A stretch of 64,000 nucleotides of DNA from an uncultured Lachnospiraceae bacterium (GTDB lineage: Bacteria > Bacillota > Clostridia > Lachnospirales > Lachnospiraceae), in NCBI GenBank assembly GCA_947644545.1, contig CANRZW010000020.1:1-64000 (forward strand), in the 5' to 3' direction. This document shows, in pieces, positions 20,301 through 37,712 of this stretch (position 1 is its first letter; every line of letters begins with the position of its first letter). The position numbers were made by a program, and so were the translations under genes. The notes beneath the pieces were generated by a model, which was not told the origin of the DNA, ran no database searches, and saw nothing but the letters and a program-made list of their open reading frames with translations.

Positions 20301-20365
20301 GTAAAGAAATCTACGATAAATTTAGAAAGAATATTGAAATTGCGTTGTAACAGGAGGATATGGCC

Positions 20366-22471
20366 ATGATGTTCGTACAACATAATCTGCTTGCAGAAAA
20401 TGCGAATCGGCAACTGAAAGTAAGTACCGGTAAGAATGCAAAGATAACAGAGAAGCTTTCGTCCGGATATAAGATCAACAGGGCAGCGGATGATGCTGCA
20501 GGTCTGTCGATTTCGGAGAAGATGCGCAGGCAGGTACGCGGCCTGCACCAGACGGTAGATAATATTTCGGAAGGGATCGGATATGTCCAGACGGCAGAAG
20601 GCGCATTGAATGAAGTGCATGATATGCTTCAGCGTATGAATGAACTTGCAGTCAAGGCGGCTAACGGTACCAATACGGCGGAGGACCGGGCCTATATTGA
20701 CAGCGAGGTGCAGGCGTTGAAGGACGAGATGGACCGGATTTTCCGGACAACGACCTATAATGAGAAGAAGGTTTGGGAGCCGGGAGAACAGAGGCTGCTG
20801 GGGTATGAGCATAAGCAGGCGATGGAATTTACGAATACCAGTGAATATATACCGGTAACGAATGAGAATTGCGGTATAGTGGCTTATGGCAACTACAATA
20901 TTACAGCGGAGGAGAAGGACGGAGTAGTTATCAAGTGGACAGGATACGATGGAAAGCCATATCAGACAGTACCGATCAGCTGGGATGAATTAAGACAGAA
21001 TAATTTTAGTTTTGACATGGCGGACTATTTCGGGGATAAAGATCCAGCCAACAAATTGTATGATGCACAGGGCAATCCGGTTTTTCATCATCAGGTTTCG
21101 TTTTCACCAATGGAAACGGCTACGATTGAAGATATGGTAGCGTGTATTGACGGGAGATCGTTTTCCAGCGGTGCAGGAGCCGACATGTTAGCCAGGTTTG
21201 AGGATAACAAAGCAAACCCTGTAACGAAAAAAGAGAATAAGGATTTACCGAGCATTCCATCTGTGTCATTGAATTATAGTGCAGCATATGCATCTAATCA
21301 CAATACAGGTCAGGATAATTCGACAAGCACCAATATTCATGATTTTAACAATGCGGATGATAAGTTTCTGGAGCCGGTGAACAGCGCGGGGACATTGGTA
21401 CAAACGCTTCCATCGGGAGGGAATCTGACTTGGATACCGAGTAACGGAACCAGTGATATAGCCATAGCGCGGGAAAGTACGGAAACGTGGGAATTTTCCT
21501 TTTATATGGATGGTATTGGGATGGTGAAGGCTACTTCTTCCAGTATTTACTATGAGGCTACGTCTAAAGATTTGTCGGATGACGATATGGGTCAGAATAA
21601 GTGGTGGGAATGGAGAGAGCGCAGTTACTGGGTGAATGGGGTACTTCATAAAGAAAAGTATAAGCATCTCTTTGACAGACACTGTGATGCGAAGGGACGG
21701 GGGACACTAGGTTCTCTTATGGCAACGCTGACAGGTAAGAAGGGCGATACGTATCCCGGTCTGTTGAATTCTGGTGCGGGTGGAGATGCAGATGGTGGTG
21801 GACGCATTGAGATTAATTTTAGTTTGGTTGCGGAGAAACCCTATACATATGGCAATGGGCAGACAAGCTCAAATGTTGGCAGTTTCACGTTTCATTTCCA
21901 GGTTTTACCCACTGATACGGAACAGGATGTACTTAATCGGATCAATGGCGCGCTGAATAAGAATACGATATTAGATTTTTATACACCTTCGGGGAACACG
22001 ACTTCTTATGGAGATGCATATTTTGGATCGGCTACAGCGGCAAGAAGAATAATCGACGTCCCGATCTATGGCGGTATCTGTGGTTTCTACGTGCAGGCCG
22101 GCACAGAGGGAGGAGAGCATATCTCCGTGCAGTATGAGTCGTTGAGCACGCTTTTCCTGGGGCTGTATGATACGAATACGCTGACGACAGAAAGCGCAGG
22201 CCAGGCGATCGATGAGATCAAAGGCGCCCTGCAGATCGTTAGCGAGCAGCGTTCGGATTTCGGCGCTTATCAGAACCGTATCGAACATGCCGAGAATATC
22301 AATGCCAATGTGGAAGAGAATACACAGGCGGCGGAGTCCAGGATCCGGGATGCTGATATATCGGATCTGATGCTGGAATATTCGATCAATAATATTCTGA
22401 TGCAGGCCGGGACCAGTATGCTGACGCAGGCGAATCAGAGCAGCCAGTCTATTATGAGCCTGCTGCAGTAG
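20366..22471 (+). CDS. Flagellin with large variable domain
   Basis: This flagellin has 701 residues from the preferred start, more than twice the usual 270-400. Conserved D0/D1 helices occupy about 1-140 (KLSSGYKINRAADDAAGLSI, VQTAEGALNEVHDMLQRMNEL). The C-terminal 110 residues (AESRIRDADISDLMLEYSIN... ending SIMSLLQ) are equally canonical, so it should polymerise and use FliS. The 440-residue surface insert shows no family I recognise. It is rich in Asn, Thr, Gly and Trp/Tyr (KWWEWRERSYW) and lacks HExxH. SD AGGAGG is 2 nt from the ATG at 20360 but 8 nt from the ATG at 20366, so the latter is chosen. It sits in an island with two other flagellins. Confidence 0.9.
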   Translation: MMFVQHNLLAENANRQLKVSTGKNAKITEKLSSGYKINRAADDAAGLSISEKMRRQVRGLHQTVDNISEGIGYVQTAEGALNEVHDMLQRMNELAVKAANGTNTAEDRAYIDSEVQALKDEMDRIFRTTTYNEKKVWEPGEQRLLGYEHKQAMEFTNTSEYIPVTNENCGIVAYGNYNITAEEKDGVVIKWTGYDGKPYQTVPISWDELRQNNFSFDMADYFGDKDPANKLYDAQGNPVFHHQVSFSPMETATIEDMVACIDGRSFSSGAGADMLARFEDNKANPVTKKENKDLPSIPSVSLNYSAAYASNHNTGQDNSTSTNIHDFNNADDKFLEPVNSAGTLVQTLPSGGNLTWIPSNGTSDIAIARESTETWEFSFYMDGIGMVKATSSSIYYEATSKDLSDDDMGQNKWWEWRERSYWVNGVLHKEKYKHLFDRHCDAKGRGTLGSLMATLTGKKGDTYPGLLNSGAGGDADGGGRIEINFSLVAEKPYTYGNGQTSSNVGSFTFHFQVLPTDTEQDVLNRINGALNKNTILDFYTPSGNTTSYGDAYFGSATAARRIIDVPIYGGICGFYVQAGTEGGEHISVQYESLSTLFLGLYDTNTLTTESAGQAIDEIKGALQIVSEQRSDFGAYQNRIEHAENINANVEENTQAAESRIRDADISDLMLEYSINNILMQAGTSMLTQANQSSQSIMSLLQ

Positions 22472-22510: not shown

Positions 22511-22900
22511 ATGGGACAGAGAATATTGGCGGCATGTGATGTGTGCGGCATTAAGAAAGAGATGTCTGTGGGGGCCGGTCTGATGACGAATAACCCGGAT
22601 ATGATAGCTTCCTGTCTGAATGGGGAAGAGGCGGAAGCTTGGAAGAGCCTGTACAGTCAACGGAAAGTAGAATCTTTCCGTGCGTCACAGAAGGTATTTT
22701 GTTGTGATCACTGCAGGGATCTGCGCTGTCAGTTGACAGTAAGCGCCACGTTGACGGACGGCACAGAAGTTACATTTGGTGATAAATGTGCCAAGTGCCA
22801 CGGAGAATTGCAGGAAGTAAGTTTGGCGGCTCAGCATCAGATCTGCCCTGTCTGTGGAAAAGGGGACTTGAGTTGGAGGCAGACAGGATTCTGGGATTAA
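22511..22900 (+). CDS. Small zinc-ribbon protein between flagellins
   Basis: This 129-residue protein of unknown function has four CxxC pairs: CDVC near the N-terminus, CDHC in the middle, CAKC and CPVC near the end. They suggest one or two zinc ribbons. It has no signal peptide or membrane segment, so it is probably cytoplasmic. It begins 40 nt after one flagellin stop and ends 82 nt before the flagellinolysin-type flagellin, all on the same strand, with a good SD (GGGAGAT). The position points to a filament-related role, for example regulating or accompanying flagellin synthesis, but nothing in the sequence proves this. Confidence 0.75.
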   Translation: MGQRILAACDVCGIKKEMSVGAGLMTNNPDMIASCLNGEEAEAWKSLYSQRKVESFRASQKVFCCDHCRDLRCQLTVSATLTDGTEVTFGDKCAKCHGELQEVSLAAQHQICPVCGKGDLSWRQTGFWD

Positions 22901-22982
22901 CAGCCGATATCCGGTATTCGGAAGGATACCGCATAGAGAAGGCAGTAAGGGAAACGCGAAGACTATCCGGGAGGGATCATAA

Positions 22983-24938
22983 ATGGTCGTAAAGCATAAT
23001 CTAACGGCAGTCAATGCCGATCGTAATCTGAACACAATAACGGGACGACAGAAGAAGAATACGGAGAAGCTGTCATCGGGCTATAAGATCAACCGTGCGG
23101 CGGACGATGCGGCAGGACTGTCTATTTCGGAGAAGATGCGCAGACAGATCAGAGGGCTTACGCAGGCATCTTTGAATACGCAGGACGGTATTTCTTTTGT
23201 GCAGAGTGCGGAAGGCGCACTGAATGAGATCCATGATATTCTGCAGAGGGGCAATGAACTGGCAGTTAAGGCAGCAAATGATACGAATATGTCCGAGGAC
23301 CGGGAAGCCATTTACGCGGAGATCAAGCAGCTTAACAATGAGATTGACAGGATCTCGAGAGATTCCCGGTTTAACGAGATGAGCATGTTCGATTCGTCGA
23401 ATGCCTCTCCGGAGACGAAAAATGCCAGTTATTTGCCGGACGGGTATCCGGATGTTATCTTTCTGGATACGGATTATATATCCTATGATATGCAGGATTT
23501 TGCGGGTGCGATCAATGAAGCGGCAGCGGCGGGGAAGACTTTTACGCAGGCAGGACTGGCAGACTTTGCGAATAAGATCAAAGATACATATATGCCGACG
23601 TTGTTGGGAGATATTGTATCCGCATTGCCGCAATCTGCGAAGCCGACAGTCCAGGGTATGCAGATCAGCCTGAAGATGTATTATAGCAACGACTCTACGC
23701 TGGCCTATGTGTCTTCCAACGGCGTCTCCTTCCAGCTGGGGGTTAACATGAGCCATTTGGCAGAAAAAGGCGGTCAGATCGCTATGACGGCCGATCTGGC
23801 TACTACGATTGCCCATGAGATGACCCATGCGGTCATGTTTGACGGCGTGACGAATGGTATGTTGGGAATAAACGGCGCGGACCAGTTTCCTTCCTGGTTT
23901 GTGGAGGGGACTGCGCAGGCGGTGGGTGGCGCCATCAATTACTGTCAGGAGTTGACGGTCAATGTTATGCCGAAGGGAGACAAGGCGATTGAGAACTGGC
24001 TTTCAGAGCTTACTGATACGTCGGATCCTTATAACGCTTATGCGCAGGGTTATATTGCCAGTATGTATCTTGGTTATGTGGCGGGCGGTGGTGGAACGGT
24101 TACGGCGGGTACTATCGCCAGGGGATTGGATGCCATTCTGAAAGATGTTGAGGACGGCTATTCCCTTGGACAGGCCATTTCCAGACAGACCAACGGAAAA
24201 TACGGTGATCTGGCAGATTTCGAAGACAGTTTCCCTAAAGATGCGGTAGCTTTTACGAAGGATCTGGTGGGGGCAATTGGAGGCGGCACGGGTTCCATTG
24301 CATCGCCCAACGGTTTGTCCGGCACAAAGGATTCTTTACTGAATGGAACGAATAAGAGTAATTATTTTGTTCTGAATGTGGATCAGAGTGATCACTATGT
24401 CAATAATTTGGGAGGCAAGAACACCTATACCGGCGGCGGCGCGACCACTACCGGCGGTCTTGACAGGGATGGCAATGCCAATCCCGACGCGGCGGCCAAG
24501 TGGGGAAGCTCCTCGGATGCCAACCGCGGCACGGTGCAACGGTCCGGAAGCATGTTTGTCCAGGTCGGATCCGAGTCCGGTCAGCATATATCGTTCAGTA
24601 CATTCAAGTTATCGGCCAGGGATTTGGGCGTGGCGGACGTCAAGGTCGATTCCATGGAGAATGCCGGTAAAGCCATCGATAAATACAAGATGGCGATCCA
24701 GTGCGTTTCCACCATGCGTTCGGAATATGGTTCCGTACAGAACCGTCTGGAACATACAGGCGTTAATCTGGATAACATAGTGGAGAACACGCAGGCGGCG
24801 GAATCCCAGATAAGGGATACCGATGTAGCCGAGGAGATGCTGGAATATTCGGTTAATAATATACTGGCACAGGCAGGAACATCCATGCTGACACAGGCGA
24901 ACCAGAATCAACAGATGATTTTGAGTCTTTTACAGTAA
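22983..24938 (+). CDS. Flagellin with inserted metallopeptidase domain (flagellinolysin type)
   Basis: This 651-residue flagellin has a zinc metallopeptidase domain in the variable region. Flagellin D0/D1 parts lie at about 1-140 (KLSSGYKINRAADDAAGLSI) and 540-651 (AESQIRDTDVAEEMLEYSVN, ending MILSLLQ). Between them, residues about 155-460 include HEMTH at 278-282 (AHEMTHAVMFDG) and a glutamate at 308 (WFVEGTAQAVGG), matching the gluzincin HExxH...E zinc site. The spacing of 25 residues between the second His and this Glu is as expected. Known flagellinolysins are flagellins of this design that make the filament proteolytic. A Gly/Thr/Asn-rich stretch (about 440-520) follows. The SD GGGAGGG is well placed. 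Catalytic activity is inferred, not shown. Confidence 0.9.
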   Translation: MVVKHNLTAVNADRNLNTITGRQKKNTEKLSSGYKINRAADDAAGLSISEKMRRQIRGLTQASLNTQDGISFVQSAEGALNEIHDILQRGNELAVKAANDTNMSEDREAIYAEIKQLNNEIDRISRDSRFNEMSMFDSSNASPETKNASYLPDGYPDVIFLDTDYISYDMQDFAGAINEAAAAGKTFTQAGLADFANKIKDTYMPTLLGDIVSALPQSAKPTVQGMQISLKMYYSNDSTLAYVSSNGVSFQLGVNMSHLAEKGGQIAMTADLATTIAHEMTHAVMFDGVTNGMLGINGADQFPSWFVEGTAQAVGGAINYCQELTVNVMPKGDKAIENWLSELTDTSDPYNAYAQGYIASMYLGYVAGGGGTVTAGTIARGLDAILKDVEDGYSLGQAISRQTNGKYGDLADFEDSFPKDAVAFTKDLVGAIGGGTGSIASPNGLSGTKDSLLNGTNKSNYFVLNVDQSDHYVNNLGGKNTYTGGGATTTGGLDRDGNANPDAAAKWGSSSDANRGTVQRSGSMFVQVGSESGQHISFSTFKLSARDLGVADVKVDSMENAGKAIDKYKMAIQCVSTMRSEYGSVQNRLEHTGVNLDNIVENTQAAESQIRDTDVAEEMLEYSVNNILAQAGTSMLTQANQNQQMILSLLQ

Positions 24939-25130: not shown

Positions 25131-28100
25131 ATGAAAATAACATTTGACAATAATAACACAAATCAAAATGTAGACAAGGTAGCGACAACTTCACATCGGG
25201 ATACTCGTACGGAGAAGACGAATCAGACGAGTGTATATGCATTAGACATTTCTGGCACAGTTATGGATAACACGGCTTACAAGGGTCAGGGAAAGACCAC
25301 AGAAGAGGTTATGCAGGATGCAGGGCAGATCGATGTTGCCACGCAGAGAGACTATATGACAGTTATGTCTAATACTATGTCTGCAGAAGATTACAATCGG
25401 ATGATGGAAGACGGTTACGATGTCGGAGATATGGATGTAGAAGAAGTCGTTACGATTGTTGACAAGATTAAGGCAGAACTTATCAAAGGTGGTACTCAGG
25501 TAGTCGGGTACACCGATCAGATAGATGCGGCCACATTGCGGGAGATTACGGGCAGTGAAGCCTTTGCGAGAGAACTGACGAAGCAGTTTGCCAGTCATGA
25601 CGTCCCTCTGACAGAGGAGAATGTCAGGAATGCAAAGAAGGCTTATGATAAGGCCATGGAGCTTCAGGAGCTGACCGAAGGCGCTGCAAAGTACATGATC
25701 GAGAATCATATGACGCCCACGATCGATAATCTATATCTGGCCGGTTACAGTTCCACGGCGGACGGCGACAGACAGGGAAGAGGGTATTATGCCGATGGAG
25801 CGGGTTATTATGCCAGGAAAGCGGAGGAGTTTAACTGGCAGCAACTGCAGCCGCAGATAGAAAAGGTGATAGAGGAAGCCGGTTTGGAGGTCAATGCAGA
25901 GACGATCGAAGACGCACAGTGGCTGATTGAGAAGGGGATTCCCCTGACACCGGAGGCAGTGACAGAGCTTTACAGATTGGATACTATGGAATGGCCCCAG
26001 AGTGAGGAACATATCTTATCGGCGATAGCGGCTGCGATCGCAGACGGGAAAAGCGCCGGGCAGGCTGATCTTGCGGACGGCAGGAGCAGTCTGGAGAAGG
26101 CTGCCGAGTATGTAGAGCGTTTTGAGCAGATCACGGAAGAAGCTGTCGATCAGACGGTAGCGGAGGGCAGGGATCTTACACTGGCGAATCTGGAGATGGC
26201 AGCGCGCGAGACGAACACGGACGACGGCAACGCAGACGGTAAAGTTCCGGCACAGACCGTGGTGGAGGAAGCACAGACAGAGAAAGCGGAAGATCATGCG
26301 GCAGCGGAGGTACCGGCCAATATTGCAGCCAGACGGCAGCTGGAAGAGATCCGTTTGATGATGACGGTGGAGGTGAACCGAAAGCTGTTGGCAAGCGGAT
26401 ATGCGATTGATACCACCGAGCTTGAGAAACTGGTAGAGACTTTAAGGCAGATAGAAGCGCAGCAGCGAAAGATTCTGTTTGGCGAAACAGATACCGACCG
26501 GGTTTCAGAAAAGGCGGCGCTGTATGCACAGACCCGCGATAAAGTAGCAGAAATTCCGTATCTGCCGATAGATATTGCCGGAAGATTTAAGGTGACGGAT
26601 GAAGATTTCACCTTGAATCAGGTGCACATAGCCGGTACGGCCTTAAGGAATCATTATGAGGAGGCCAGAGAGCGTTATGAGACGTGGATGACGACGACCA
26701 AGAGTGACCTGGGAGACTCCATCGATAAGGCTTTCCGGAATGTGGATAACATTTTGCAGGATATGGGACTGGAAACCAGTGAGGAGAATCGCCGGGCAGT
26801 GCGGATTCTGGGATATAATCGGATGGAATTGTCACCCGAGAATATAGAGACGGTGAAAGCATCCGATCTGCAGCTGCAGAGGGTAGTCGATAAGATGACA
26901 CCGGCAGCTGTCCTGCAGGCAATCCGTGACGGCCAGAATCCGCTGGAGATGACGCTGCCGCAGTTAGATGCCTATCTGGATTCCATACAATCCGGTAAAG
27001 AACAGGAGATGGAGAAATTCAGCAAATTCTTATATAAGCTGGATAAGAACAAAGCTATCACGGAGGAAGAACGAACGGCGTATATCGGTATTTACCGTAT
27101 GTTAAGGCAGTTTGAGAAGACGGATAATGCGGCGGTCGGAGCTCTGGTAAATATAGGGGCGGAAGTATCCTTTAAGAATATGCTCAGCGCGGTGCGCAGC
27201 CAGAAAAAAGCAGGCATGGATTTCATGATAGATGATGCTTTTGCCGGTGTGGAAGCGATCGAGAAGGGAATATCCATTACCAAGCAGATTGAGACCGGAT
27301 TTCCCAAGTACTACCGGGATATTGCCGGAGACATTGCGGATCGGATGGCGAAGCAGGATGCCGCTACGCAAAGAGAGTATCAGGCGGAACAGATGCAGGA
27401 CTGCCGGAAAGCGTGCGAAGCGGAAGATGCGGTAATCGAGGAGCTGCTGCATAACAGGCAGCCTGTGACGATCAATAATCTGGCAGCAGCAGACAGATTG
27501 ATGAACAGCAGGGGGGCTGTTTATAAGAAACTGCAGGAATATACGACACCTGAGAACAGAAGTAAGGTCAGATATGCGGCGGCCCATCTGCAGGAGGCGT
27601 TGACAGATAAGGATAGCGCACAGGAAGCTTACGGGGATATGCAGAGAGTTTATGAAGAGATACTGGAAGAGAAGCAGTATAGCGGCGATATTAGTTATAT
27701 CGATCTGAAGGCGATTCAAAGCTGTCATAAGCAGCTGACTCTGGCAGGTAATCTCGCTAAGGAAGAGAATTATCAGATTCCGGTTGAGATCCATGGAGAG
27801 ACTACGGCGATCAACTTAAGAGTCCTTCATGACCGGGAAAATGGCGGTAAGGTGAAAGCGACGTTTGAGACGGAAAGCCATGGCCAGGTGGCGGCCGAGT
27901 TCAGCATAAGAAACGGCCGGGTTTCAGGTTATGTTGCCTGCTCCACGCAGGAAGGAACCGCTGTGATAACGCAGAAATCAGAGAGCCTGCAGAAGGGATT
28001 ACAGGAGTTGTTTGCCGGAAAGCAGGGCAGCCCTGAGATTGGACACATTGGGGTAGTCCACAGTAGTGATCTGGATCTGAATGCTTTTGCGGCAGAGGAG

Positions 28101-28181
28101 CCGCAGGAAGAAGCGGCATCGGTTCAGACGGCTGATCTGTATCAGATCGCGAAAGTGTTTATTACAGCAGTTACAGCGTAG
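25131..28181 (+). CDS. Large DUF6240-like protein with FliK-like C-terminus
   Basis: This 1016-residue, mostly helical and very acidic protein resembles DUF6240 proteins that occur beside flagellar genes in Lachnospiraceae. A conserved opening (MKITFDNNNTNQN) is followed by many helices with repeated phrases of the type ITEENVRNAKKAY, VTINNLAAADRLM and LTPEAVTELYRL. These suggest a tandem repeat of a roughly 70-residue helical unit. The last 150 residues become beta-rich (QIPVEIHGETTAINLRVLHD ... VKATFETESHGQVAAEFSI) and resemble the C-terminal Flg_hook domain of FliK, which measures hook length and switches export specificity. There is no signal peptide. Size and context fit a secreted hook-length or filament-related ruler, which is an inference. 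Confidence 0.65.
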   Translation: MKITFDNNNTNQNVDKVATTSHRDTRTEKTNQTSVYALDISGTVMDNTAYKGQGKTTEEVMQDAGQIDVATQRDYMTVMSNTMSAEDYNRMMEDGYDVGDMDVEEVVTIVDKIKAELIKGGTQVVGYTDQIDAATLREITGSEAFARELTKQFASHDVPLTEENVRNAKKAYDKAMELQELTEGAAKYMIENHMTPTIDNLYLAGYSSTADGDRQGRGYYADGAGYYARKAEEFNWQQLQPQIEKVIEEAGLEVNAETIEDAQWLIEKGIPLTPEAVTELYRLDTMEWPQSEEHILSAIAAAIADGKSAGQADLADGRSSLEKAAEYVERFEQITEEAVDQTVAEGRDLTLANLEMAARETNTDDGNADGKVPAQTVVEEAQTEKAEDHAAAEVPANIAARRQLEEIRLMMTVEVNRKLLASGYAIDTTELEKLVETLRQIEAQQRKILFGETDTDRVSEKAALYAQTRDKVAEIPYLPIDIAGRFKVTDEDFTLNQVHIAGTALRNHYEEARERYETWMTTTKSDLGDSIDKAFRNVDNILQDMGLETSEENRRAVRILGYNRMELSPENIETVKASDLQLQRVVDKMTPAAVLQAIRDGQNPLEMTLPQLDAYLDSIQSGKEQEMEKFSKFLYKLDKNKAITEEERTAYIGIYRMLRQFEKTDNAAVGALVNIGAEVSFKNMLSAVRSQKKAGMDFMIDDAFAGVEAIEKGISITKQIETGFPKYYRDIAGDIADRMAKQDAATQREYQAEQMQDCRKACEAEDAVIEELLHNRQPVTINNLAAADRLMNSRGAVYKKLQEYTTPENRSKVRYAAAHLQEALTDKDSAQEAYGDMQRVYEEILEEKQYSGDISYIDLKAIQSCHKQLTLAGNLAKEENYQIPVEIHGETTAINLRVLHDRENGGKVKATFETESHGQVAAEFSIRNGRVSGYVACSTQEGTAVITQKSESLQKGLQELFAGKQGSPEIGHIGVVHSSDLDLNAFAAEEPQEEAASVQTADLYQIAKVFITAVTA

Positions 28182-28255: not shown

Positions 28256-29434
28256 ATGAAGATCAGTTACAATGCGGCGGCAATGCGTGCTAACAATGCC
28301 TTGAATAAATCGGACCAGAGACTGACCAAGTCCCTGAAAAGGCTCTCTTCCGGGTTAAAAGTTACGGCGGCCAAGGAGAATCCGTCCGGCTATGCGATCG
28401 GACGCAGAATGAATGCGCAGATCGCAGGAGTATCGGTGGCAACACAGAGCGCCAATAACGGAATCTCCATTATTGAGACGGCAGACGGAGCTTTGTCAGA
28501 AGTTCATGATATGCTGCAGAGAATGAATGAGCTGGCGGTTAAGGGAGCGACGGGCACGCTTACCTCAGTGGATAGAGAGACGCTGAATAAGGAATTAATA
28601 CAGTTGAAGGAAGAAGTGACCAGAATTTCTACCGATACGGAGTTCAACGGTCAGCCGCTTCTGGATGGCAGCTTTGATTTGAAGGGCTATACCAACAGTC
28701 AGAAAGTGAATGTCGACTACTATGTAGATGAAGCATTGATGAAAGAATATACGATTGATGCGCTGGAAGTCTTCTATAATGATGACGGAACAATCGATCT
28801 GGATAAGACCAAAGCTTCTTTCGTTCCGGGGCCGGAATTTCCGAAAGGATCAGAGATTACGGGAGTGGGTCAGGATAAGATTACGATCAAGGGCAGTCAG
28901 GGATTCGAGCTTACGCTTTCGGTGAAACCCGATCCGGTAGTGGATGCTAACGGTAATATCACAGGATATAATTCCGTAAACTGCATTTCTCAGGATGCGA
29001 CAGGTGCAGATGTTCCGTTGAAGATTGACCTTACGGGAATCGGCGCTATGGATACACAGATCGGCGCCAATGAAGGACAGCAGCTGGATATCCGTATTCC
29101 GACGATCTCTCTGAACCATCTTGGTATTTCGCAGACGGAAGTAACGACTCAGGAAAGCAGCAGTGACGCTATTACGGAAATAAAAGGTGCGATTCAGTAT
29201 GTGTCGGATGTGCGCAGCCGTCTGGGAGCTTATCAGAACCGTTTGGAGCATACGATCAGCAGCCTGGATATTACGAAAGAGAACATGACAGCATCTTATT
29301 CCCGCATTATGGATGTGGATATGGCGGAGGAGATGACCAATTATACGACGGAACAGGTGATCTCGCAGGCATCGACTTCCATGTTGGCACAGGCAAATGA
29401 GAGACCGTCTCAGGTGCTGCAGCTGTTACAGTAG
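28256..29434 (+). CDS. Flagellin
   Basis: This 392-residue flagellin is of near-normal size. The N-terminal D0/D1 part (about 1-140: KRLSSGLKVTAAKENPSGYA, ADGALSEVHDMLQRMNEL) and C-terminal D1/D0 part (about 290-392: YQNRLEHTISSLDITKENMT, ending VLQLLQ) flank a short variable region of about 140 residues. The N-terminus (MKISYNAAAMRANNALNKSD) differs from the other two flagellins here (..VKHNLTAVNADRNLN), so it belongs to a separate paralogous group. It follows the DUF6240-like gene by 74 nt and precedes a FliS-like gene. SD AGGAGG is 8 nt upstream. Confidence 0.92.
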   Translation: MKISYNAAAMRANNALNKSDQRLTKSLKRLSSGLKVTAAKENPSGYAIGRRMNAQIAGVSVATQSANNGISIIETADGALSEVHDMLQRMNELAVKGATGTLTSVDRETLNKELIQLKEEVTRISTDTEFNGQPLLDGSFDLKGYTNSQKVNVDYYVDEALMKEYTIDALEVFYNDDGTIDLDKTKASFVPGPEFPKGSEITGVGQDKITIKGSQGFELTLSVKPDPVVDANGNITGYNSVNCISQDATGADVPLKIDLTGIGAMDTQIGANEGQQLDIRIPTISLNHLGISQTEVTTQESSSDAITEIKGAIQYVSDVRSRLGAYQNRLEHTISSLDITKENMTASYSRIMDVDMAEEMTNYTTEQVISQASTSMLAQANERPSQVLQLLQ

Positions 29435-29502: not shown

Positions 29503-29985
29503 ATGGCTATGACCAGGGAATTGAAGCAGGAATTTACGCTGAGGATTACGCAGGCGAATAAGACACAGTTGATCACGATCTTGTATGAGATGGTGCTGCT
29601 CTATGTGGAAGAAGCCGAGGAGGCGCTGACCGCTGACGAAAAGGCTGCATTTAAAAGCGCGGTCCGGAAGATCCGTGGATGCATGAATGAGCTGATGTCA
29701 TCCTTACATCTTGAATATGAGCTGGCGCAGAATCTGTTGCAGCTGTATCTCTACGTGAACAGGGAACTTGTAAAGGCTTCTTCCCATTTCGAGAAGGAGA
29801 ACCTGGAACATGTTCGATTGGTAATCGGTAAGCTACACAAATCTTATGAGCAGATTGAGAATCAGGATGCATCGGGGCCTGTTATGGGCAACACGCAGGC
29901 GGTATATGCCGGACTTACTTACGGCAGGAATACGCTGACAGAGAACATTACAGACCCCGGCAGGAATCGCGGTTTTTGCGTATAA
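29503..29985 (+). CDS. FliS-like flagellar chaperone
   Basis: This 160-residue helical protein begins MAMTRELKQEFTLRITQANK, followed by LITILYEMVLLYVEEAEEAL. That resembles the four-helix FliS fold, in which a tyrosine-containing helix and the motif LI.xLYE.. bind the C-terminal D0 helix of flagellin and prevent early polymerisation. The position immediately after a flagellin gene supports this. Its C-terminal 30 residues (PVMGNTQAVYAGLTYGRNTL) extend beyond the usual FliS length of about 125. A second-copy or specialised chaperone for the unusual flagellins is possible. The family call is probable rather than certain. Confidence 0.7.
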   Translation: MAMTRELKQEFTLRITQANKTQLITILYEMVLLYVEEAEEALTADEKAAFKSAVRKIRGCMNELMSSLHLEYELAQNLLQLYLYVNRELVKASSHFEKENLEHVRLVIGKLHKSYEQIENQDASGPVMGNTQAVYAGLTYGRNTLTENITDPGRNRGFCV

Positions 29986-30910: not shown

Positions 30911-31438
30911 ATTGGACTGAGTTACGATCAATCTCTGTTGCTTCTATTGCTGTTTCTTGCAGCGATGGCAGATCTTAAGACGGACCGGATCCCCAACGGA
31001 TTTATTGTGATTGGCATTCTGACAGGATTAATCAGCAGCCACTGGCACGGACCGGGACTTTCTTCTTCGATGGTGTCTATGCTTCTTGCATTTCTGCTCA
31101 TGTATCCCTTATTTAAGATCGGAACATTGGGAGCCGGTGATATCAAGACGCTTATCATGGCCGCATGTTTTCTGAGAGTCCGGGAGTTTTTGACAGTGTT
31201 GGCGGCCGCATTTGTGATCGGAGCAGCCATTTGCGCAGGTAAGCTGCTGGCGGAACATAACGGGAAGGAAAGGCTGCTCTATCTGCTGTCCTATGTATCT
31301 GAGGTTATAAGGAGCGGGCATTGGAAACTGTACGGGGAGGACTTAAAACAGGATCAGATGTTGTACCGTAGGAATAAGATACATTTCACGATTCCGGTAT
31401 TGCTTGGTGCGGCGCTAAGAATAGGAGGGATGATTTGA
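30911..31438 (+). CDS. Prepilin peptidase (A24, TadV/CpaA type), first copy
   Basis: This membrane aspartic peptidase cleaves prepilin leaders of Tad pili. The first catalytic aspartate is in AAMADLKTDRIPNG and the second in GAGDIKTLI (the GxGD motif). Five or six hydrophobic segments are predicted. The start is unusual. AGGGAGGTG (30897-30905) is ideally placed, 5 nt before an ATT codon (30911), and no ATG/GTG/TTG lies in frame until TTG 30938. The latter would leave the first transmembrane helix very short and has no SD. The ATT start is preferred but unproved. The stop overlaps the start of the next gene. Confidence 0.82.
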   Translation: MGLSYDQSLLLLLLFLAAMADLKTDRIPNGFIVIGILTGLISSHWHGPGLSSSMVSMLLAFLLMYPLFKIGTLGAGDIKTLIMAACFLRVREFLTVLAAAFVIGAAICAGKLLAEHNGKERLLYLLSYVSEVIRSGHWKLYGEDLKQDQMLYRRNKIHFTIPVLLGAALRIGGMI

Positions 31439-32496
31439 GGCAGAAGATATTTGCGATCTGTGATATGGAAGAGGCGTATGCGCTCAGAATGGCGGAATAT
31501 ATGCTGGAGAAGATCAGGATTCCATATGCATTGCATCTATTTACGAAGGTGGAGGAACTGGAGAGATTTCTGGAACAGGAGAAGATTGAGATACTGCTGA
31601 TTGCGGAGAGTGCATTGGAGCTGTTACGTATGGAATATGTCAGCCGGCAGGTGGCACAGGTGTTTGTCCTGCAGGAAAACGATATGCGGGAGGGCGGCGG
31701 ACAGGACAATGACAAACAGAAGCAGGATGGCCGGGAAAGGGAGGATACAACGCTGTATATCAGCAAATTCCAAAGTCCGGAGAGGATCGTGTCGATCCTG
31801 ATCGAATCGGCGAAGGGACTGGCAGACTGGCCGGCAGCCGGAACACAGATACAGGAGGATGTGAAGCTGATCGGTGTTTATTCTCCGATCAAACGATGCC
31901 TGCAGACTTCTTTCGCATTGACAATGGGCCAGATTCTGGCGAAGGAACACAAGGTATTATATTTCAATTTCGAGAATTATTCGGGGTTTGGGAAGATGCT
32001 GGGACGGGAATTTGGCACGGATGTATCCGATGTGCTGTATTATTTCCGCTGTGACCAGGAGAAGCTTGCGCTGCATCTGCCGGCGATCATACAGAATATT
32101 AACGGTTTGGACTATATACCACCAATGCAGTCACAGATGCAGCTGTGGGAGACGGAAGGCGGGCAGTGGCTGGAGCTATGCAGGAAGATTGCGCAGATCG
32201 GAGAGTATGATTATATCATTCTGGATCTGGATGACGGGATGAGCGGTCTGTTCGATCTGCTGCGGGAATGCTACAAAATCTATACGATTACGCGGGAGGA
32301 CAGCTTTGCAGTGGCCAAGCTGAACCAGTATGAGCAGATCCTGAAATTCCATGAGCTGGAAGATATTGTGGATAAGACGGTGAAATGCCGGTTTCCGATC
32401 TTCAAGGAAGTACCGGTGAACCTGGAACTTATGACGCACGGACAACTGGCAGGATATGTGAAGGCGATCATCAGAGAGGATCTGTATGGAAAGTAG
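31435..32496 (+). CDS. TadZ/CpaE-like pilus assembly protein
   Basis: This 353-residue protein has a receiver-like N-terminal domain (about 1-125) and a ParA/MinD-like domain (about 140-350). This is the layout of TadZ/CpaE, which positions the Tad machinery at a cell pole. The MinD-type P-loop is degenerate: the segment GVYSPIKRCLQTSFALTMG stands where GGxGKT is expected, though the Walker B-like strand IILDLDDG is kept. ATPase activity is therefore doubtful. Start is TTG 31435, 4 nt after AGGAGGG and overlapping the previous stop. The next gene begins inside its last 11 bases, so translational coupling is likely. Confidence 0.8.
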   Translation: MRQKIFAICDMEEAYALRMAEYMLEKIRIPYALHLFTKVEELERFLEQEKIEILLIAESALELLRMEYVSRQVAQVFVLQENDMREGGGQDNDKQKQDGREREDTTLYISKFQSPERIVSILIESAKGLADWPAAGTQIQEDVKLIGVYSPIKRCLQTSFALTMGQILAKEHKVLYFNFENYSGFGKMLGREFGTDVSDVLYYFRCDQEKLALHLPAIIQNINGLDYIPPMQSQMQLWETEGGQWLELCRKIAQIGEYDYIILDLDDGMSGLFDLLRECYKIYTITREDSFAVAKLNQYEQILKFHELEDIVDKTVKCRFPIFKEVPVNLELMTHGQLAGYVKAIIREDLYGK

Positions 32497-33706
32497 GGAA
32501 GAACGTAAGAGAAGACTGCGGGAGAGGCTGGCAGAGAATATTGATTATTCCACGGAGAAATCGGATGAGGAGATACAGGAACTGATCGATGAGATGCTGA
32601 CGAAGGAGAGTAAGAAAGCGCCTCTCGGATTGGCGGAACGGGAACAGCTCAGACGGGAATTGTTCTATGCGATCCGTAAGCTGGATGTACTGCAGGATCT
32701 GGTGGATGATCCGCATATTACGGAGATCATGATCAACGGGCCGGAGTATATTTTTATCGAAAAAGAGGGGCGGCTGCGTAGGAGCGAGCTTCGTTTCGAG
32801 AGCCGGGAGCAGCTGCAGAATGTGATACAGCATATCGTGGCCGACTGCAACAGAGTGGTCAATGAGGCTTCTCCGATCGTGGATGCAAGACTGCAGAACG
32901 GAGCACGTGTCAATGTGGTTCTGAATCCGGTGGCATTAAACGGCCCGATCGTGACCATACGCCGGTTCCCGGACAAGCCGATCCTGATGGAAGATCTGAT
33001 CGCCTATGGCTCCATCACGGAAGAAGTGAGCGAATGGTTACGGAAGCTTGTGCAGGCGAAATACAACATTATGATCAGCGGCGGAACGGGATCCGGTAAG
33101 ACAACGTTTCTGAATGCGCTGTCTTATTATATCCCGGCAGAGGAGCGCATCATTACGATAGAAGATAATGCGGAACTGCAGATTCTGGGGCTGCCCAATC
33201 TGGTTCGCATGGAGAAGAGAAATGCCAATGTGGAAGGATGCAGTGAGATCAGTATCCGGGATTTGATCAGGACATCCTTGCGGATGCGGCCGGATCGGAT
33301 TATCGTCGGCGAAGTCAGAGGTGGAGAGGCATTCGACATGATGCAGTGTCTCAATACCGGGCATGACGGATCCATGTCCACCGGACATGCCAACAGTTGT
33401 GAAGATATGTTGAGCAGGCTGGAGAATATGATACTGATGGGAATGGATATCCCGCTTACGGCCATTAAGCAACAGATTGCTTCCGGCGTGGACATTATCA
33501 TTCATCTGGGCCGTCTGCGGGATAAATCCCGGAAAGTGCTGGAGATTACGGAAGTATTGAGATTTGAGAATGGCAGAATCACAACAAGGCCTCTGTACCA
33601 ATTCACGGAGAACGGAGAAGATGCACAGGGCAGAGTTTTGGGCGTACTGCAGAAGAGAGGAGAGTTGTCTTATGTCGAGAAATTACGGGCTGCCGGATTA
33701 CAGTGA
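32486..33706 (+). CDS. tadA: TadA/CpaF secretion ATPase
   Basis: This 406-residue hexameric ATPase of the type II/IV secretion superfamily powers Tad pilus extrusion. It has an N-terminal domain (about 1-170) with EIMINGPEYIFIEKEG, then Walker A (SGGTGSGKTT, G199-K205 area), Asp box (TIEDNAELQI), Walker B region (RPDRIIVGEVRGGEAFDMMQ) and His box (STGHANSCEDML). All are intact. The start overlaps the TadZ gene and the end overlaps the TadB start. Confidence in the family is high. Confidence 0.95.
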   Translation: MESREERKRRLRERLAENIDYSTEKSDEEIQELIDEMLTKESKKAPLGLAEREQLRRELFYAIRKLDVLQDLVDDPHITEIMINGPEYIFIEKEGRLRRSELRFESREQLQNVIQHIVADCNRVVNEASPIVDARLQNGARVNVVLNPVALNGPIVTIRRFPDKPILMEDLIAYGSITEEVSEWLRKLVQAKYNIMISGGTGSGKTTFLNALSYYIPAEERIITIEDNAELQILGLPNLVRMEKRNANVEGCSEISIRDLIRTSLRMRPDRIIVGEVRGGEAFDMMQCLNTGHDGSMSTGHANSCEDMLSRLENMILMGMDIPLTAIKQQIASGVDIIIHLGRLRDKSRKVLEITEVLRFENGRITTRPLYQFTENGEDAQGRVLGVLQKRGELSYVEKLRAAGLQ

Positions 33707-34430
33707 ATATCATTTGCAGGGAAAAGAAGGGACTTTCTATGTTCTGGAAGGTGCGGCGGTAATCGCGATGATCGGGTATTTCTTCTATCATTCCTGGATT
33801 GCCTGTCTGGCACTTATTCCTGGACTGCTTCTTTTTTTAAAAGATAAGAAGAAGGAGCTGTCGAAGAAGAGACGTCAGGAACTGGGTATCCAGTTTAAGG
33901 ATATGATCCTTTCGGTGGCAGCTAACCAGAAGGCGGGATATTCCATTGAAAATGCGTTTCGAGAGTCTTACCGGGATATGGAAATGCTCTACGGGGCAAA
34001 GGCGCTGATCTGTAAGGAGATCAGGCATATTATGGCAGGACTTGACAACAACATGGTATTGGAGAAACTGCTGTATGATCTCGGGACACGAAGTCATGAG
34101 CCGGATATCATGCAGTTTGCGGATGTGTTCTATATAGCAAAAAGGAGCGGCGGAAATATGACGGATATCCTGGCCAAGACGGCGTCAGTAATAGAACAGA
34201 AGATGGAGACGGATAAGGAGATCCAGTTAATGATCAGTGCAAAGAAGATGGAACAGAAGATCATGAATGCGGTGCCTTTCCTGATCATCTTCTATGTAAG
34301 CGCGACATCCAGAGGATTCTTTGATGTGCTGTACCATAATCTGGTCGGAATTGCAGTAATGACAGCCTGTCTGGGATTCTACGCTGCGGCGTATCGATTG
34401 TCGAAGAGGATCGTGGAAATTGAGGTATAG
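33672..34430 (+). CDS. tadB: TadB-like inner membrane platform protein
   Basis: This 252-residue type II secretion F-domain protein has two N-terminal hydrophobic segments (about 22-56), a cytoplasmic helical F domain (about 65-200, with SIENAFRESYRDME and DIMQFADVFYIAKRSGGN), and two C-terminal helices (about 205-245). It pairs with TadC to form the membrane platform. The frame is open from 33564, but the ATG at 33672 has GGAGAG upstream and lies within the end of tadA. Confidence 0.88.
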   Translation: MSRNYGLPDYSEYHLQGKEGTFYVLEGAAVIAMIGYFFYHSWIACLALIPGLLLFLKDKKKELSKKRRQELGIQFKDMILSVAANQKAGYSIENAFRESYRDMEMLYGAKALICKEIRHIMAGLDNNMVLEKLLYDLGTRSHEPDIMQFADVFYIAKRSGGNMTDILAKTASVIEQKMETDKEIQLMISAKKMEQKIMNAVPFLIIFYVSATSRGFFDVLYHNLVGIAVMTACLGFYAAAYRLSKRIVEIEV

Positions 34431-34484
34431 AAGATAAATGGAAGAAAGGTTGAATGTCATGAAAGAAAGGAGGAAGGCGAAGGC

Positions 34485-35942
34485 ATGATCTATCTATATG
34501 GGGCAGTGCTATGTGGTTATCTGTTGCTGTGGATAGTGTCCCTACGGGAAGACGGGAAGGGCGCTTTTCGGAGAATGGCAATGTATTTCTGGCGGAGAGG
34601 GCAGAGTGCGCAACAGAAGAAGGCGGGACAGAAACGTAACTGGCAGAAGGACCTGTACCGGAAACAACTGGGAAATAAGTTGAAGACACTGCGGCCGGAA
34701 GTAGCGGCACAGGTACAGATACAGGAATATTATGTGTCGCTGTACAGCCTGTTGTTCATGGTCGTCTTTATGGGTACGACAGTGTGTCTGTGCATATGGA
34801 TTGCAGCTCATAGCAGCCCTGTGCTGTTGGAGGGAGGTTATCTTAAGAGAAAGTCTTATGGAGAGGGCAAGACGCCGGTATCGTTGGCGGCGAAAGTGGA
34901 AGGAAAGGAGGAGGAAATCTTCGATTATCTCGTGGAGGAGCGAAAATACACGACACAGGAGGCGGAGAAATTGTATGCGCAGGCCGTTAAAATCCTGCCA
35001 AAGGTGATCTGCGGACAGAATGAAAGTCTGGAAGATGTGCGCACACATTTAGACCTGGTAACACAGCTGGAAGGATACCCGTTCTCGATATCATGGGAGA
35101 GTGACAGCTATTCTATCGTGAATACGGACGGTACGGTGAACAATGAGGAGTTGAAGGAGGGTACGGTGATCGCCTTAACGGCACAGTTTCGATATGAAAA
35201 GCTGACCTGGGATTATCAGATGTATGTGCAGGTTAATCCGAAGAGGTATACCGGACAGGAACTGTTACGGAGACGAATAGAGGAGCTGCTGCGGCGGCAG
35301 GAGGAAAAGACGGGCGCTATGGATACGATGACCTTGCCGGATCGGGTGGACTCTGTGCCGATCATCTGGAAGGAGATCGTAGAGGACAGCAGCGGTTATC
35401 TTCTGTTACTGGTCTTATCTTCCGCGGTATTTCTATACTGGGCGAGAAGCAGGGAGCCGGACAGGCGGTTGGAGAATCGCAGAAAAGAGTTGTTGTTGGA
35501 TTACCCGGAGATCGTAAACAAACTGGCGCTGTATATGGGGGCCGGCATGACGATCAGGAACGCCTTCTTCAAGCTGGGAGAGGACTACAGAAAACATCAG
35601 AGGGAGAGAAAACGATATGCTTATGAAGAAATATTGATGACCTGTTATGAATTGCAAAGCGGCAGGCCGGAGAAGGAGGCGTATGACCATTTCGGCAAGC
35701 GCTGCCAGGTACAGGTCTATATGAAATTGAGCACGCTTTTGGCGCAGAATCTGCGTAAGGGCAGCAACGATTTACTGAAAGTTCTGCGCCAGGAAGCTGA
35801 TAATGCTTTTGCTGAGAGGAAGAACCTGGCAAAGAAGCTGGGTGAGGAAGCCGGCACAAAACTGCTTCTGCCAATGATGATGATGTTATGTATCGTGATG
35901 GTAATCATTATGGTACCGGCATATTTTTCATTCATGGTGTGA
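34485..35942 (+). CDS. tadC: TadC-like platform protein with large insert
   Basis: This 485-residue protein ends in a clear F domain (about 310-485: LLLDYPEIVNKLALYMGAGM, FAERKNLAKKLGEEAGTKLL, final hydrophobic helix). Unlike usual TadC (about 300 residues), it has a hydrophobic start (1-18), a basic cytoplasmic stretch, a second hydrophobic segment (about 83-108) and then a soluble insert of about 190 residues (about 110-300) before a third helix. The insert (KVEGKEEEIFDYLVEERKYT...) shows no family I recognise and should lie outside the membrane. An added sorting or binding role is possible. Confidence 0.82.
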   Translation: MIYLYGAVLCGYLLLWIVSLREDGKGAFRRMAMYFWRRGQSAQQKKAGQKRNWQKDLYRKQLGNKLKTLRPEVAAQVQIQEYYVSLYSLLFMVVFMGTTVCLCIWIAAHSSPVLLEGGYLKRKSYGEGKTPVSLAAKVEGKEEEIFDYLVEERKYTTQEAEKLYAQAVKILPKVICGQNESLEDVRTHLDLVTQLEGYPFSISWESDSYSIVNTDGTVNNEELKEGTVIALTAQFRYEKLTWDYQMYVQVNPKRYTGQELLRRRIEELLRRQEEKTGAMDTMTLPDRVDSVPIIWKEIVEDSSGYLLLLVLSSAVFLYWARSREPDRRLENRRKELLLDYPEIVNKLALYMGAGMTIRNAFFKLGEDYRKHQRERKRYAYEEILMTCYELQSGRPEKEAYDHFGKRCQVQVYMKLSTLLAQNLRKGSNDLLKVLRQEADNAFAERKNLAKKLGEEAGTKLLLPMMMMLCIVMVIIMVPAYFSFMV

Positions 35943-36013
35943 GTCGATTGAGACGGCGGCAGCGGTTTGATGCAGATAGATAGCAGAATAAAGGAAAACA
36001 GGAGGAAAACAAA

Positions 36014-36214
36014 ATGGCAAGAAGAAGAGAAAAGGGACAATTAAAAGGTCTGCGCGATTTCCTGCGGGAAGAGGAAGGTATGGGAACGGTAGAAATCATA
36101 CTGATCATCGTTGTACTGATCGGGTTGGTGATTATCTTTAAGAAACAACTGCGCGCCCTGGTGGAAAAGGTATTTGAGAAGATCACCAAGGACAGTAATA
36201 CCGTAATGTCATGA
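36014..36214 (+). CDS. Flp/Tad type IVb prepilin
   Basis: This 66-residue pilin has a basic leader followed by the cleavage site G22|MGTVE with glutamate at +5. A hydrophobic helix follows (EIILIIVVLIGLVIIFK) and then a short charged tail. It is the main pilus subunit of the operon and a substrate of one of the two prepilin peptidases. The gene has a strong SD (AGGAGG) and overlaps the next gene by ATGA. Confidence 0.93.
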   Translation: MARRREKGQLKGLRDFLREEEGMGTVEIILIIVVLIGLVIIFKKQLRALVEKVFEKITKDSNTVMS

Positions 36215-37647
36215 GAAAAGGGTATATGACCGTATTTCTTACATTATCCCTTACACTGATCCTGTCCCTTGTATTCACAGTGATAGAAGGGGCACGGATC
36301 AGTGCCATCCGCATGAAGTTTGAGTGCGTTGCGGATATCGGTATGAATTCCGTCCTTGCAGAATATCACAGAGAGTTGTTGGAACAATATGACCTGCTGT
36401 TCGTGGATATGTCATATGGCGGAGGTCATGCGGATATCGGGAATACAGAAGCGCATCTCAAGAACTATATGCAGAAGAATCTCAGGCCGGAAGGCGGGGC
36501 TTTGAATGCTCTGGGAGTCAGAGACTTTCTGGCCATGTCAACAGATAAAGTGCAGATCGGACAGTATTCTATCGCTTCAGATGAAGGAGGAGCCGTATTA
36601 AAAAGACAGGTTACGGATTATATGGCGGACTATCCCCTGGGAGCGGTCCTGGAGAAGATACATCTGGGGACATCGGAGATCGGTCAGTATGGCTTAGAGA
36701 CGAGAGATGTGGAGGCGGAACGGGGACGCTACGAAGCAGAAATTGATGAGATCGGGCTTCCCGTGGAAGAAGTGGAGGAAGGAGTCTTTGCGGAAGTACC
36801 GTTAAACAATCCCGCAGATGCGGCCAATGCGACAAGAAGCAGCGGTGTGCTGAATCTGGTGCTGGAAAATCCCTCGTCGGTTTCCGCAGTCAAGATTAAT
36901 GAGAAGGACTATCTTTCCCATCGAGCCAGGATACAGGGAAGCGGTATGTGTGCGGAAGCGGCAGTCATTTCGGGAAAGCCGGACGAACTGATCTTTCAGG
37001 TGTATCTGTTTGAGAAATGCGGGTATTACGGGGAGGAAATGGAGAAATCGTTGTTAAAGTATCAGATAGAATATATTCTGGCGGGTAAAGGCGTGGACTG
37101 GAAGAATCTGGAATATGTAGCTAAGCGTCTTCTGCGTTGGCGCGAAGTGGCCAATGTGATTTATATTCTGTCAGATGGTGCGAAGGTGGCCGAAGCGAAG
37201 GCAGCTGCCGGTGCATTGGCGGCAGTGCTTATGTGCCCGGCGCTGTTAGAGCCGGTTGCCTATACGATTCTGTTTGCATGGGCATATGTGGAGAGCCTGC
37301 AGGACGTGAAGACACTTCTTTCCGGGGGCAGGGTGCCGATCATCAAGACGGCAGCGGATTGGAAGACAGGGATTAACAGTCTGACCAACGTGAGAGGCAG
37401 TTTGTCGGCCGACAGTGGAGGCAGAGGTCTGAACTATAAGGAGTATTTGCAGATCATGCTTTATTTACAAAGCAGAGAGCAAAGGACATATCGTGCCATG
37501 GATATCATGGAGATGGATATCCGCAGGACGCCAGGCAATGCAAGATTCCGGATGGATGCCTGTTTTGACACTTATCAGGCGGATCTGTGCATATCGAGCC
37601 GGTTCGGATATGCGTATGAGATGACAAGAACGTATGGGTTTTATTAA
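36211..37647 (+). CDS. DUF5702 Tad-associated protein
   Basis: This 478-residue protein has a pseudopilin-like N-terminal helix (MRKGYMTVFLTLSLTLILSL) and a large outer domain, as in DUF5702 proteins encoded in clostridial Tad loci. They probably replace TadG or act as minor pilus or anchoring components. No signal cleavage box with +5 glutamate is present, since F occupies that place. The C-terminal domain (about 300-478) includes a hydrophobic stretch (VAEAKAAAGALAAVLMCPAL) suggesting a second membrane contact. Translation start overlaps the Flp stop. Confidence 0.78.
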   Translation: MRKGYMTVFLTLSLTLILSLVFTVIEGARISAIRMKFECVADIGMNSVLAEYHRELLEQYDLLFVDMSYGGGHADIGNTEAHLKNYMQKNLRPEGGALNALGVRDFLAMSTDKVQIGQYSIASDEGGAVLKRQVTDYMADYPLGAVLEKIHLGTSEIGQYGLETRDVEAERGRYEAEIDEIGLPVEEVEEGVFAEVPLNNPADAANATRSSGVLNLVLENPSSVSAVKINEKDYLSHRARIQGSGMCAEAAVISGKPDELIFQVYLFEKCGYYGEEMEKSLLKYQIEYILAGKGVDWKNLEYVAKRLLRWREVANVIYILSDGAKVAEAKAAAGALAAVLMCPALLEPVAYTILFAWAYVESLQDVKTLLSGGRVPIIKTAADWKTGINSLTNVRGSLSADSGGRGLNYKEYLQIMLYLQSREQRTYRAMDIMEMDIRRTPGNARFRMDACFDTYQADLCISSRFGYAYEMTRTYGFY

Positions 37648-37712
37648 GGGGTTGGCCATTGGGAAGTTATGGCAAGATATTTTGAGGCGATATTTTTGGG
37701 AGGTGATCAAAG

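Follow-up and report, generated by a model that had tools for sequence, protein, structure and literature searches.

A divergent flagellinolysin-type flagellin gene adjoining a small CxxC protein gene in a gut Lachnospiraceae genus

Does the flagellin cluster of an uncultured Lachnospiraceae bacterium include a proteolytic flagellin and, if it does, which neighbouring gene belongs with it? We addressed this question in a 64,000-nucleotide stretch of DNA (hereafter the window), in which a gene at 22983..24938 encodes a 651-aa protein from an ATG start preceded by GGGAGGG at 22969-22975; this gene, its parts and its neighbours between 20360 and 29985 all lie on the forward strand. The initial annotation had read the product as a flagellin with complete D0/D1 ends around an inserted gluzincin metallopeptidase domain, that is, a flagellinolysin. 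The ends are borne out by Pfam matches to Flagellin_N (PF00669, E 2e-38) at residues 3-140 (22989..23402) and to Flagellin_C (PF00700, E 2.5e-23) at residues 566-650 (24678..24932). Between them lies a peptidase insert at about residues 160-450 (23460..24332), which a flagellinolysin profile matches at residues 193-458. Translation confirms the HEMTH zinc-binding and catalytic motif at residues 278-282 (23814..23828) as well as the downstream Glu308 (23904..23906), which lies within WFVEGTA, is the next glutamate 3' of the motif at 30 residues after its first histidine, and is predicted by sequence alignment to be the third zinc ligand. The predicted zinc site thus comprises His278, His282 and Glu308, and Ala311, three residues further on, aligns with the 'basement' residue of known members.

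HEMTH is the sole HExxH in the window (stop-to-stop frames of at least 150 aa; 28,612 aa examined). A chance occurrence of the motif in a 651-aa flagellin was ruled out because the insert alone (residues 141-480) matches the NCBIfam flagellinolysin model NF033876 with 110.6 bits (E 1.2e-31), whereas the centre of a neighbouring 703-aa flagellin, used as a control, scores 15.1 bits (E 0.012). The insert has no Pfam match at E up to 10, so a collagenase-type M9 or other Pfam peptidase was rejected as its identity; the M9 domain of clostridial collagenase, to which flagellinolysin peptidase domains are most closely related according to the main text of PMC5595980, is among the families lacking a match. 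Measured against the definition of flagellinolysins (Eckhard 2017), the 651-aa protein has flagellin N- and C-terminal domains, a central HExxH with distal glutamate and basement alanine, and an insert homologous to known members; it differs in carrying Asn255 where the studied enzyme has an acidic calcium ligand, Asp206, the position having been placed from sequence alone by counting 27 residues before the first histidine in a Clostridium relative (L066). The whole protein scores 149.3 bits against NF033876, under the curated cut-off of 205 bits, and we therefore call its group, type B, a divergent sister group rather than a member of the equivalog.

Flagellinolysin genes occur in 30 of 77 genomes of the genus, with type B in 9 and a second kind, type A, which passes the NF033876 cut-off in all 23 of its cases, in 23; two genomes (G000 and G032) have both, and the window's own genome is one of the two. 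Its type-A enzyme (C9:71728-73605) shares the domain order of type B and likewise lies beside the small CxxC protein described below as ZnR, but differs in having HEFMH, Asp at the calcium position and ZnR downstream, and in passing the NCBI cut-off at 208.8 bits (neighbours in frame included). The initial annotation's placement of the DNA in a gut Lachnospiraceae agrees with its nearest relatives, most of which are recorded as Lachnospiraceae, one from a water deer cecum. When 93 peptidase domains were placed in a tree, the 8 type-B rows and the 22 type-A rows each fell on one side of a branch with support of 100/99 or better, and the two types together on one side of a branch with support of 100/98; as the tree is rooted at its midpoint, the term 'sister' assumes that the root lies outside types A and B. 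The tree was built from an alignment of 95 domains, some of them non-flagellin relatives, that remained after dropping seven fragments or repeats and six identical rows, and it additionally leaves out L032, which a stop interrupts, and L043, which has masked letters. Selenomonas has tandem flagellinolysin genes (L051 4492-8190; L053 5989-11212), one L051 copy having Ala in place of the third zinc ligand Glu. Proteins from Desulfovibrio and Selenomonadaceae (L105 5554-7620, L106 1634-5490, L112 2938-5022) have the peptidase domain without flagellin ends and, by eye, a common C-terminal DGS-aromatic tail; two of them stand in tandem in L106.

Across the fetched loci, duplicates included, 106 of 108 profile matches keep HExxH and the other two are ORF fragments. 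Because the 95-row alignment was anchored on HExxH, its H/E/H columns agree in 95/95 rows by construction, but the glutamate and alanine columns were free to vary: the Glu308 column is Glu in 94/95 domains, the exception being one Selenomonas row, and the Ala311 column is Ala in all 95. Selection on the insert is purifying, with dN/dS of 0.05-0.14 in five pairs; in three close pairs the insert values are 0.07, 0.07 and 0.14, beside 0.004-0.08 for D0/D1 and 0.06-0.12 for ZnR. The insert is also 90% identical to its nearest relative, as compared with 65% for the variable region of the 703-aa flagellin in the same two genomes, and we conclude that it is under strong constraint, unlike that variable region. 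These features, with the insert-only profile match, support at the level of sequence the flagellinolysin-type gluzincin domain proposed at the outset.

They also bear on the alternative that the insert has kept its fold but lost its activity and now has a structural or antigenic role as a variable region. The Asn at the calcium-site position and the low score to the curated model speak for this idea, as do broken relatives, namely one that has lost the insert (G049), one with HGLMH and split frames (G413) and two with in-frame stops (G162 and G031). Set against them, HExxH, Glu and Ala are kept in 9/9 type-B genes, and dN/dS in the close pairs is low. The calcium position, moreover, is Asn in 8/9 type-B proteins (the ninth is masked) and Asp in 23/23 of type A, while the 63 rows outside both types divide into Asn 32, Asp 30 and Ser 1; with Asn in 40/95 aligned domains overall, Asp is not a strict feature of the family. 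We accordingly regard an inactive insert as very improbable.

We then considered the genes around the enzyme. A 703-aa flagellin with a large unrelated central region (20360..22471) and the 129-aa ZnR (22511..22900) lie upstream, while a 1016-aa DUF6240 protein with a weak FliK-like C-terminal match (25131..28181; E 0.098), a 392-aa flagellin (28256..29434) and the flagellin export chaperone FliS (29503..29985) lie downstream. The initial annotation was thus right that two more flagellins are close by, but they are not immediate neighbours, since ZnR and the DUF6240 protein intervene. The central region of the 703-aa flagellin matches no Pfam family, and its slot is highly variable, relatives having frames of 1259 aa (L126 1554-5333) and at least 1134 aa (L117 2-3406). 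The DUF6240 protein was present in 12 of 13 flagellin-locus stretches taken from the genus. Directly after the flagellin cluster, a prepilin peptidase, a T2SSE ATPase, two T2SSF proteins and DUF5702 (30938-38702) together resemble a Tad/Flp-type pilus locus. The sigma-D pattern TAAA-N13-17-CCGATA has no match within the window, and sigma-70 sites (10 versus 13.1) and terminators (3 versus 6.3) are fewer than in shuffled sequence, so we claim no promoter.

ZnR is found immediately 5' of the enzyme gene at every one of the eight other type-B loci. The DUF6240 gene and a 390-aa flagellin gene follow 3' in seven, the eighth (G075) being represented by only 2.2 kb on that side, and FliS is found in six, the G045 stretch stopping short of its position. 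A 700-aa flagellin precedes the enzyme in five, with the G075 copy 3.9 kb away; it was not seen there in G021 or G007, and in G056 its place is taken by a frame of at least 1134 aa. Five loci without type B have the same gene row closed up, and ZnR is absent from four of them and present in G053. When neighbours were compared with those at five type-A loci, setting aside the flagellin ends of the enzyme itself, ZnR was the sole match; GlgB, the two flagellins, DUF6240, FliS, P987 and orf30393 had no counterpart and were rejected as partners.

The linkage holds throughout the genus. ZnR adjoins the enzyme at 9/9 type-B loci, always upstream, and at 22/23 type-A loci, downstream, the exception being G053. 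A profile search of the 77 genomes, in which nearly all first-look candidates were scored, found 34 full-length copies and one fragment (G034), and 31 of the 34 lie next to a flagellinolysin, that of G031 being interrupted by an in-frame stop; most seeds of the profiles were enzyme-adjacent copies, but the genome-wide searches were free to find others. The window's own genome yields exactly two matches, one beside each of its two flagellinolysins. By genome, ZnR is present in 30/30 flagellinolysin-positive and 3/47 negative members (G009, G049 and G034; Fisher test, 2.6e-18, uncorrected for kinship among genomes of one genus, which are not independent). In the enzyme-negative G009, ZnR is at the very start of a contig, and in G049 an intact copy lies beside a type-A-like flagellin that has lost its insert and whose halves are in different frames. 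G053 has a type-B-like ZnR (L122 2621-3046) at a type-B site whose enzyme was lost or never present, together with a type-A flagellinolysin without a ZnR of its own (L135 6149-8158). The decayed sites in G049 and G034 indicate that what is left of the small gene can persist after the enzyme has gone.

ZnR itself is a small protein with four CxxC pairs that runs from MG to WD. Alignment of 16 homologues of both kinds gives 17 invariant positions (M1, G2, C9, C12, G21, G23, C65, C68, V77, C93, C96, C112, P113, C115, G126, W128 and D129). Attempts to name it from Pfam, NCBIfam or PDB sequences returned weak zinc-ribbon matches alone: the window copy reaches at best 14 bits in Pfam (cut-off 34.4) and 16.8 bits in NCBIfam (cut-off 31.3) and thus no curated zinc-ribbon cut-off, and the other 15 rows, judged by E-value, reach 4.5e-05 at best, against Zn_ribbon_8, which 12/16 rows weakly resemble. 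Other weak matches were to the metallochaperone HypA (6/16 rows, best E 0.011), RNA polymerase subunit P and L37Ae. Longer CxxC relatives with frames of 167-194 aa (L167 5822-6337, L168 1745-2329 and L205-L207), four of the five ending in WD, suggest by sequence a wider unnamed family; no flagellinolysin lies near them, and their neighbours show no theme by eye.

To determine how far the pairing extends, we searched more distant genomes, scoring up to 14 ZnR candidates per genome for the family and up to 11 for the class, which makes absence less firm than in the genus. Among 299 Lachnospiraceae genomes (298 genera, the window's included), nine near-full-length ZnR genes were found in nine other genera, along with seven weaker partial matches. 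Seven of the nine adjoin a flagellinolysin (L158-L161 and L163-L165), one of which has an in-frame stop (G162) and another HGLMH and split frames (G413); the other two lie at a contig edge (G371) and beside an ABC transporter (G178). Counted from the enzyme, nine genomes of other Lachnospiraceae genera have a flagellin-embedded peptidase and ZnR is beside it in seven, none having been found beside those of G408 and G406. By contrast, none of five Sec-type relatives has a ZnR neighbour (G222, two in G323, G210 and G423; the G222 contig is only 3.7 kb, and a weak match, G080, was left out of the count). These relatives (L188-L190, L192 and L193) are non-flagellin frames, 711-813 aa long, that contain this peptidase domain and show, by eye, Sec signal-like N-termini and, in L188, dockerin-like repeats; they may be kin to the donor from which the flagellin insert came. 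A class-wide sample of 391 genomes gave two strong matches beyond the window's own, G702, whose ZnR adjoins a flagellinolysin, and G714, whose ZnR adjoins an incomplete flagellinolysin-type gene without HExxH; of five weaker matches, the three examined are longer proteins with no flagellinolysin near. XBB2008 (G449) also has the pair.

A shorter partner is found in Acetobacterium, where a 106-109-aa protein is encoded directly downstream of the enzyme. Its first 26 residues share MG, C9, C12, G21 and G23 with ZnR, and a comparison with the ZnR profile gives E 8.8e-6 (probability 83%) over 26 columns, which supports homology for that part. In the family of A. wieringae (NCBI: Eubacteriaceae; 40 genomes), enzyme and full-length short form occur in the same seven genomes and are adjacent in 7/7, no intact short form is present in the 33 genomes without the enzyme, and in G460 the enzyme is absent and only a remnant of the small gene is left. 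Five stretches (L209-L213) share a left neighbour by eye, so this pair was probably inherited at one site. Other lineages differ: a model of type-B and Acetobacterium sequences found no ZnR below E 0.001 (lowest 0.0087) in 17 flagellinolysin genomes drawn from Clostridium, Selenomonas, Anaerovibrio, Colwellia and kin, Pseudomonas, Bacillus, Rummeliibacillus, Paenibacillus, Povalibacter and a Chloroflexi, nor was a ZnR-type CxxC protein seen within 1.5 kb of the enzymes of such lineages. A conserved small CxxC partner was sought beside the Selenomonas, Clostridium, Colwellia and Bacillus enzymes and none was seen; these share few other small neighbours. As ZnR is lacking in G408, G406 and 17/17 of these genomes, the flagellinolysin family as a whole does not need it, and the ZnR partner is a trait of some flagellinolysin lineages. 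Where it occurs, the gene for ZnR and that for the enzyme mostly share one pattern of presence and absence, the pair being found at several genomic sites and in both orders.

What might ZnR do? A protease synthesised in the cytosol and exported by the flagellar route confronts the cell with a difficulty that does not arise for Sec-type relatives, and the presence of ZnR beside flagellin-embedded (7/9) and not Sec-type (0/5) peptidases fits a cytosolic guard or an export chaperone. ZnR would then act on the peptidase domain in the cytosol before export, as inhibitor or chaperone; this is our preferred account of a function that we infer at every point, and we hold it tentatively, at somewhat less than an even chance. 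ZnR could instead load the active site, as a zinc donor or folding factor, an idea to which its four CxxC pairs and its resemblance to zinc ribbons and HypA lend support. Flagellins cross the export channel unfolded, however, and metal loaded in the cytosol would be lost on the way; a loading factor would also be hard to square with the lack of a ZnR neighbour at the Sec-type relatives examined and of any ZnR in the 17 other flagellinolysin genomes, and we consider this role unlikely. We give a similarly low probability to a dedicated transcriptional or translational regulator of the flagellinolysin gene that never touches the protein. CxxC zinc ribbons are common among nucleic-acid-binding proteins, and the weak RNA polymerase subunit P and L37Ae matches point the same way; the downstream position of ZnR in type A and the Acetobacterium family, and the persistence of a type-B-kind ZnR in G053, whose sole flagellinolysin is type A, count against regulation while still being compatible with it. 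Some further role is less probable again.

Returning to a guard or chaperone, recombinant H. gracilis flagellinolysin is described in the main text of PMC7643111 as active, self-cleaving and found in inclusion bodies, behaviour that by analogy would suit a need for help, albeit in another host and from a lineage without a demonstrated ZnR. A fuller version of the guard idea, which we regard as doubtful, posits an enzyme-and-guard system in Lachnospiraceae and the Acetobacterium family, in which ZnR binds the insert in the cytosol and is removed at the flagellar export gate, leaving the enzyme to become active only outside the cell. The conserved C-terminal aromatic-Asp end of ZnR might then sit in the active-site cleft, which in the studied flagellinolysins is reported to prefer large hydrophobic P1' residues.

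From the observed domain make-up, residue conservation, selection on the insert and linkage to ZnR, we consider it likely that 22983-24938 encodes a proteolytic flagellin belonging to a divergent clade of flagellinolysins, in a two-gene module with ZnR. The protein would be exported by the flagellar secretion system and form a minority subunit of the filament beside ordinary flagellins, displaying a zinc metallopeptidase on the filament surface; both its proteolytic activity and its incorporation are suggested by sequence. Counting against this explanation are the score of 149.3 against 205 bits, Asn255 for Asp206 and the ZnR-free relatives, and several ZnR-linked enzymes are broken (G031, G162, G413 and G714). 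In an alternative account, display on the filament is secondary, and the protein either leaves the cell as a secreted monomer or cleaves its own variable region. Self-cleavage of the H. gracilis enzyme, for which the main text proposes both release routes (PMC7643111), is in line with this, but D0/D1 is intact at both ends of the 651-aa protein and the C. haemolyticum flagellinolysin is the second most abundant filament protein according to the main text of PMC5595980, and we judge release or self-clipping to be quite unlikely. The same text estimates up to 10% of subunits and 1000-2000 sites per filament for the C. haemolyticum enzyme. The thousands of active sites per filament that the initial annotation envisaged for the 651-aa protein may follow if it is incorporated.

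Flagellinolysins as such are known, as the initial annotation recognised: the C. haemolyticum enzyme was described in 2017 with 86 sequences from 74 species (PMC5595980, main text) and that of Hylemonella gracilis in 2020 (PMC7643111, main text). As presented there, the former, FliA(H)/FlaMP, shares with type B the flagellin ends, the HExxH gluzincin insert and the Ala three residues after the third ligand, which follows the first histidine by 29 residues instead of 30; type B differs in being a divergent clade under the NCBI cut-off, with Asn255 for Asp206 and linkage to ZnR. H. gracilis has the same architecture, although its gene is described as lying away from flagellar genes, unlike that of type B. 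The main text of PMC5595980 has no match to ribbon or chaperone and that of PMC7643111 none to ribbon, although the supplements might show a partner. A literature search joining flagellin with a metalloprotease domain or a zinc ribbon protein found none, and PMC13269764, in the part available, merely cites the H. gracilis paper. The kind of protein is therefore known and rare; what looks new is its ZnR neighbour.

The genus, with 30/77 genomes positive, adds an animal-gut setting to the pathogen C. haemolyticum and the pond bacterium H. gracilis. How a cell survives a broad-specificity protease flagellin in its cytosol does not appear to be discussed in the main text of either characterisation paper, in which the word cytoplasm has no match (PMC5595980, PMC7643111). 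As a gene that goes with the enzyme in two families, at several sites and in both gene orders, ZnR is a candidate that can be tested directly, and if it does act as a guard, flagellinolysin lineages without ZnR would need another route of silencing.
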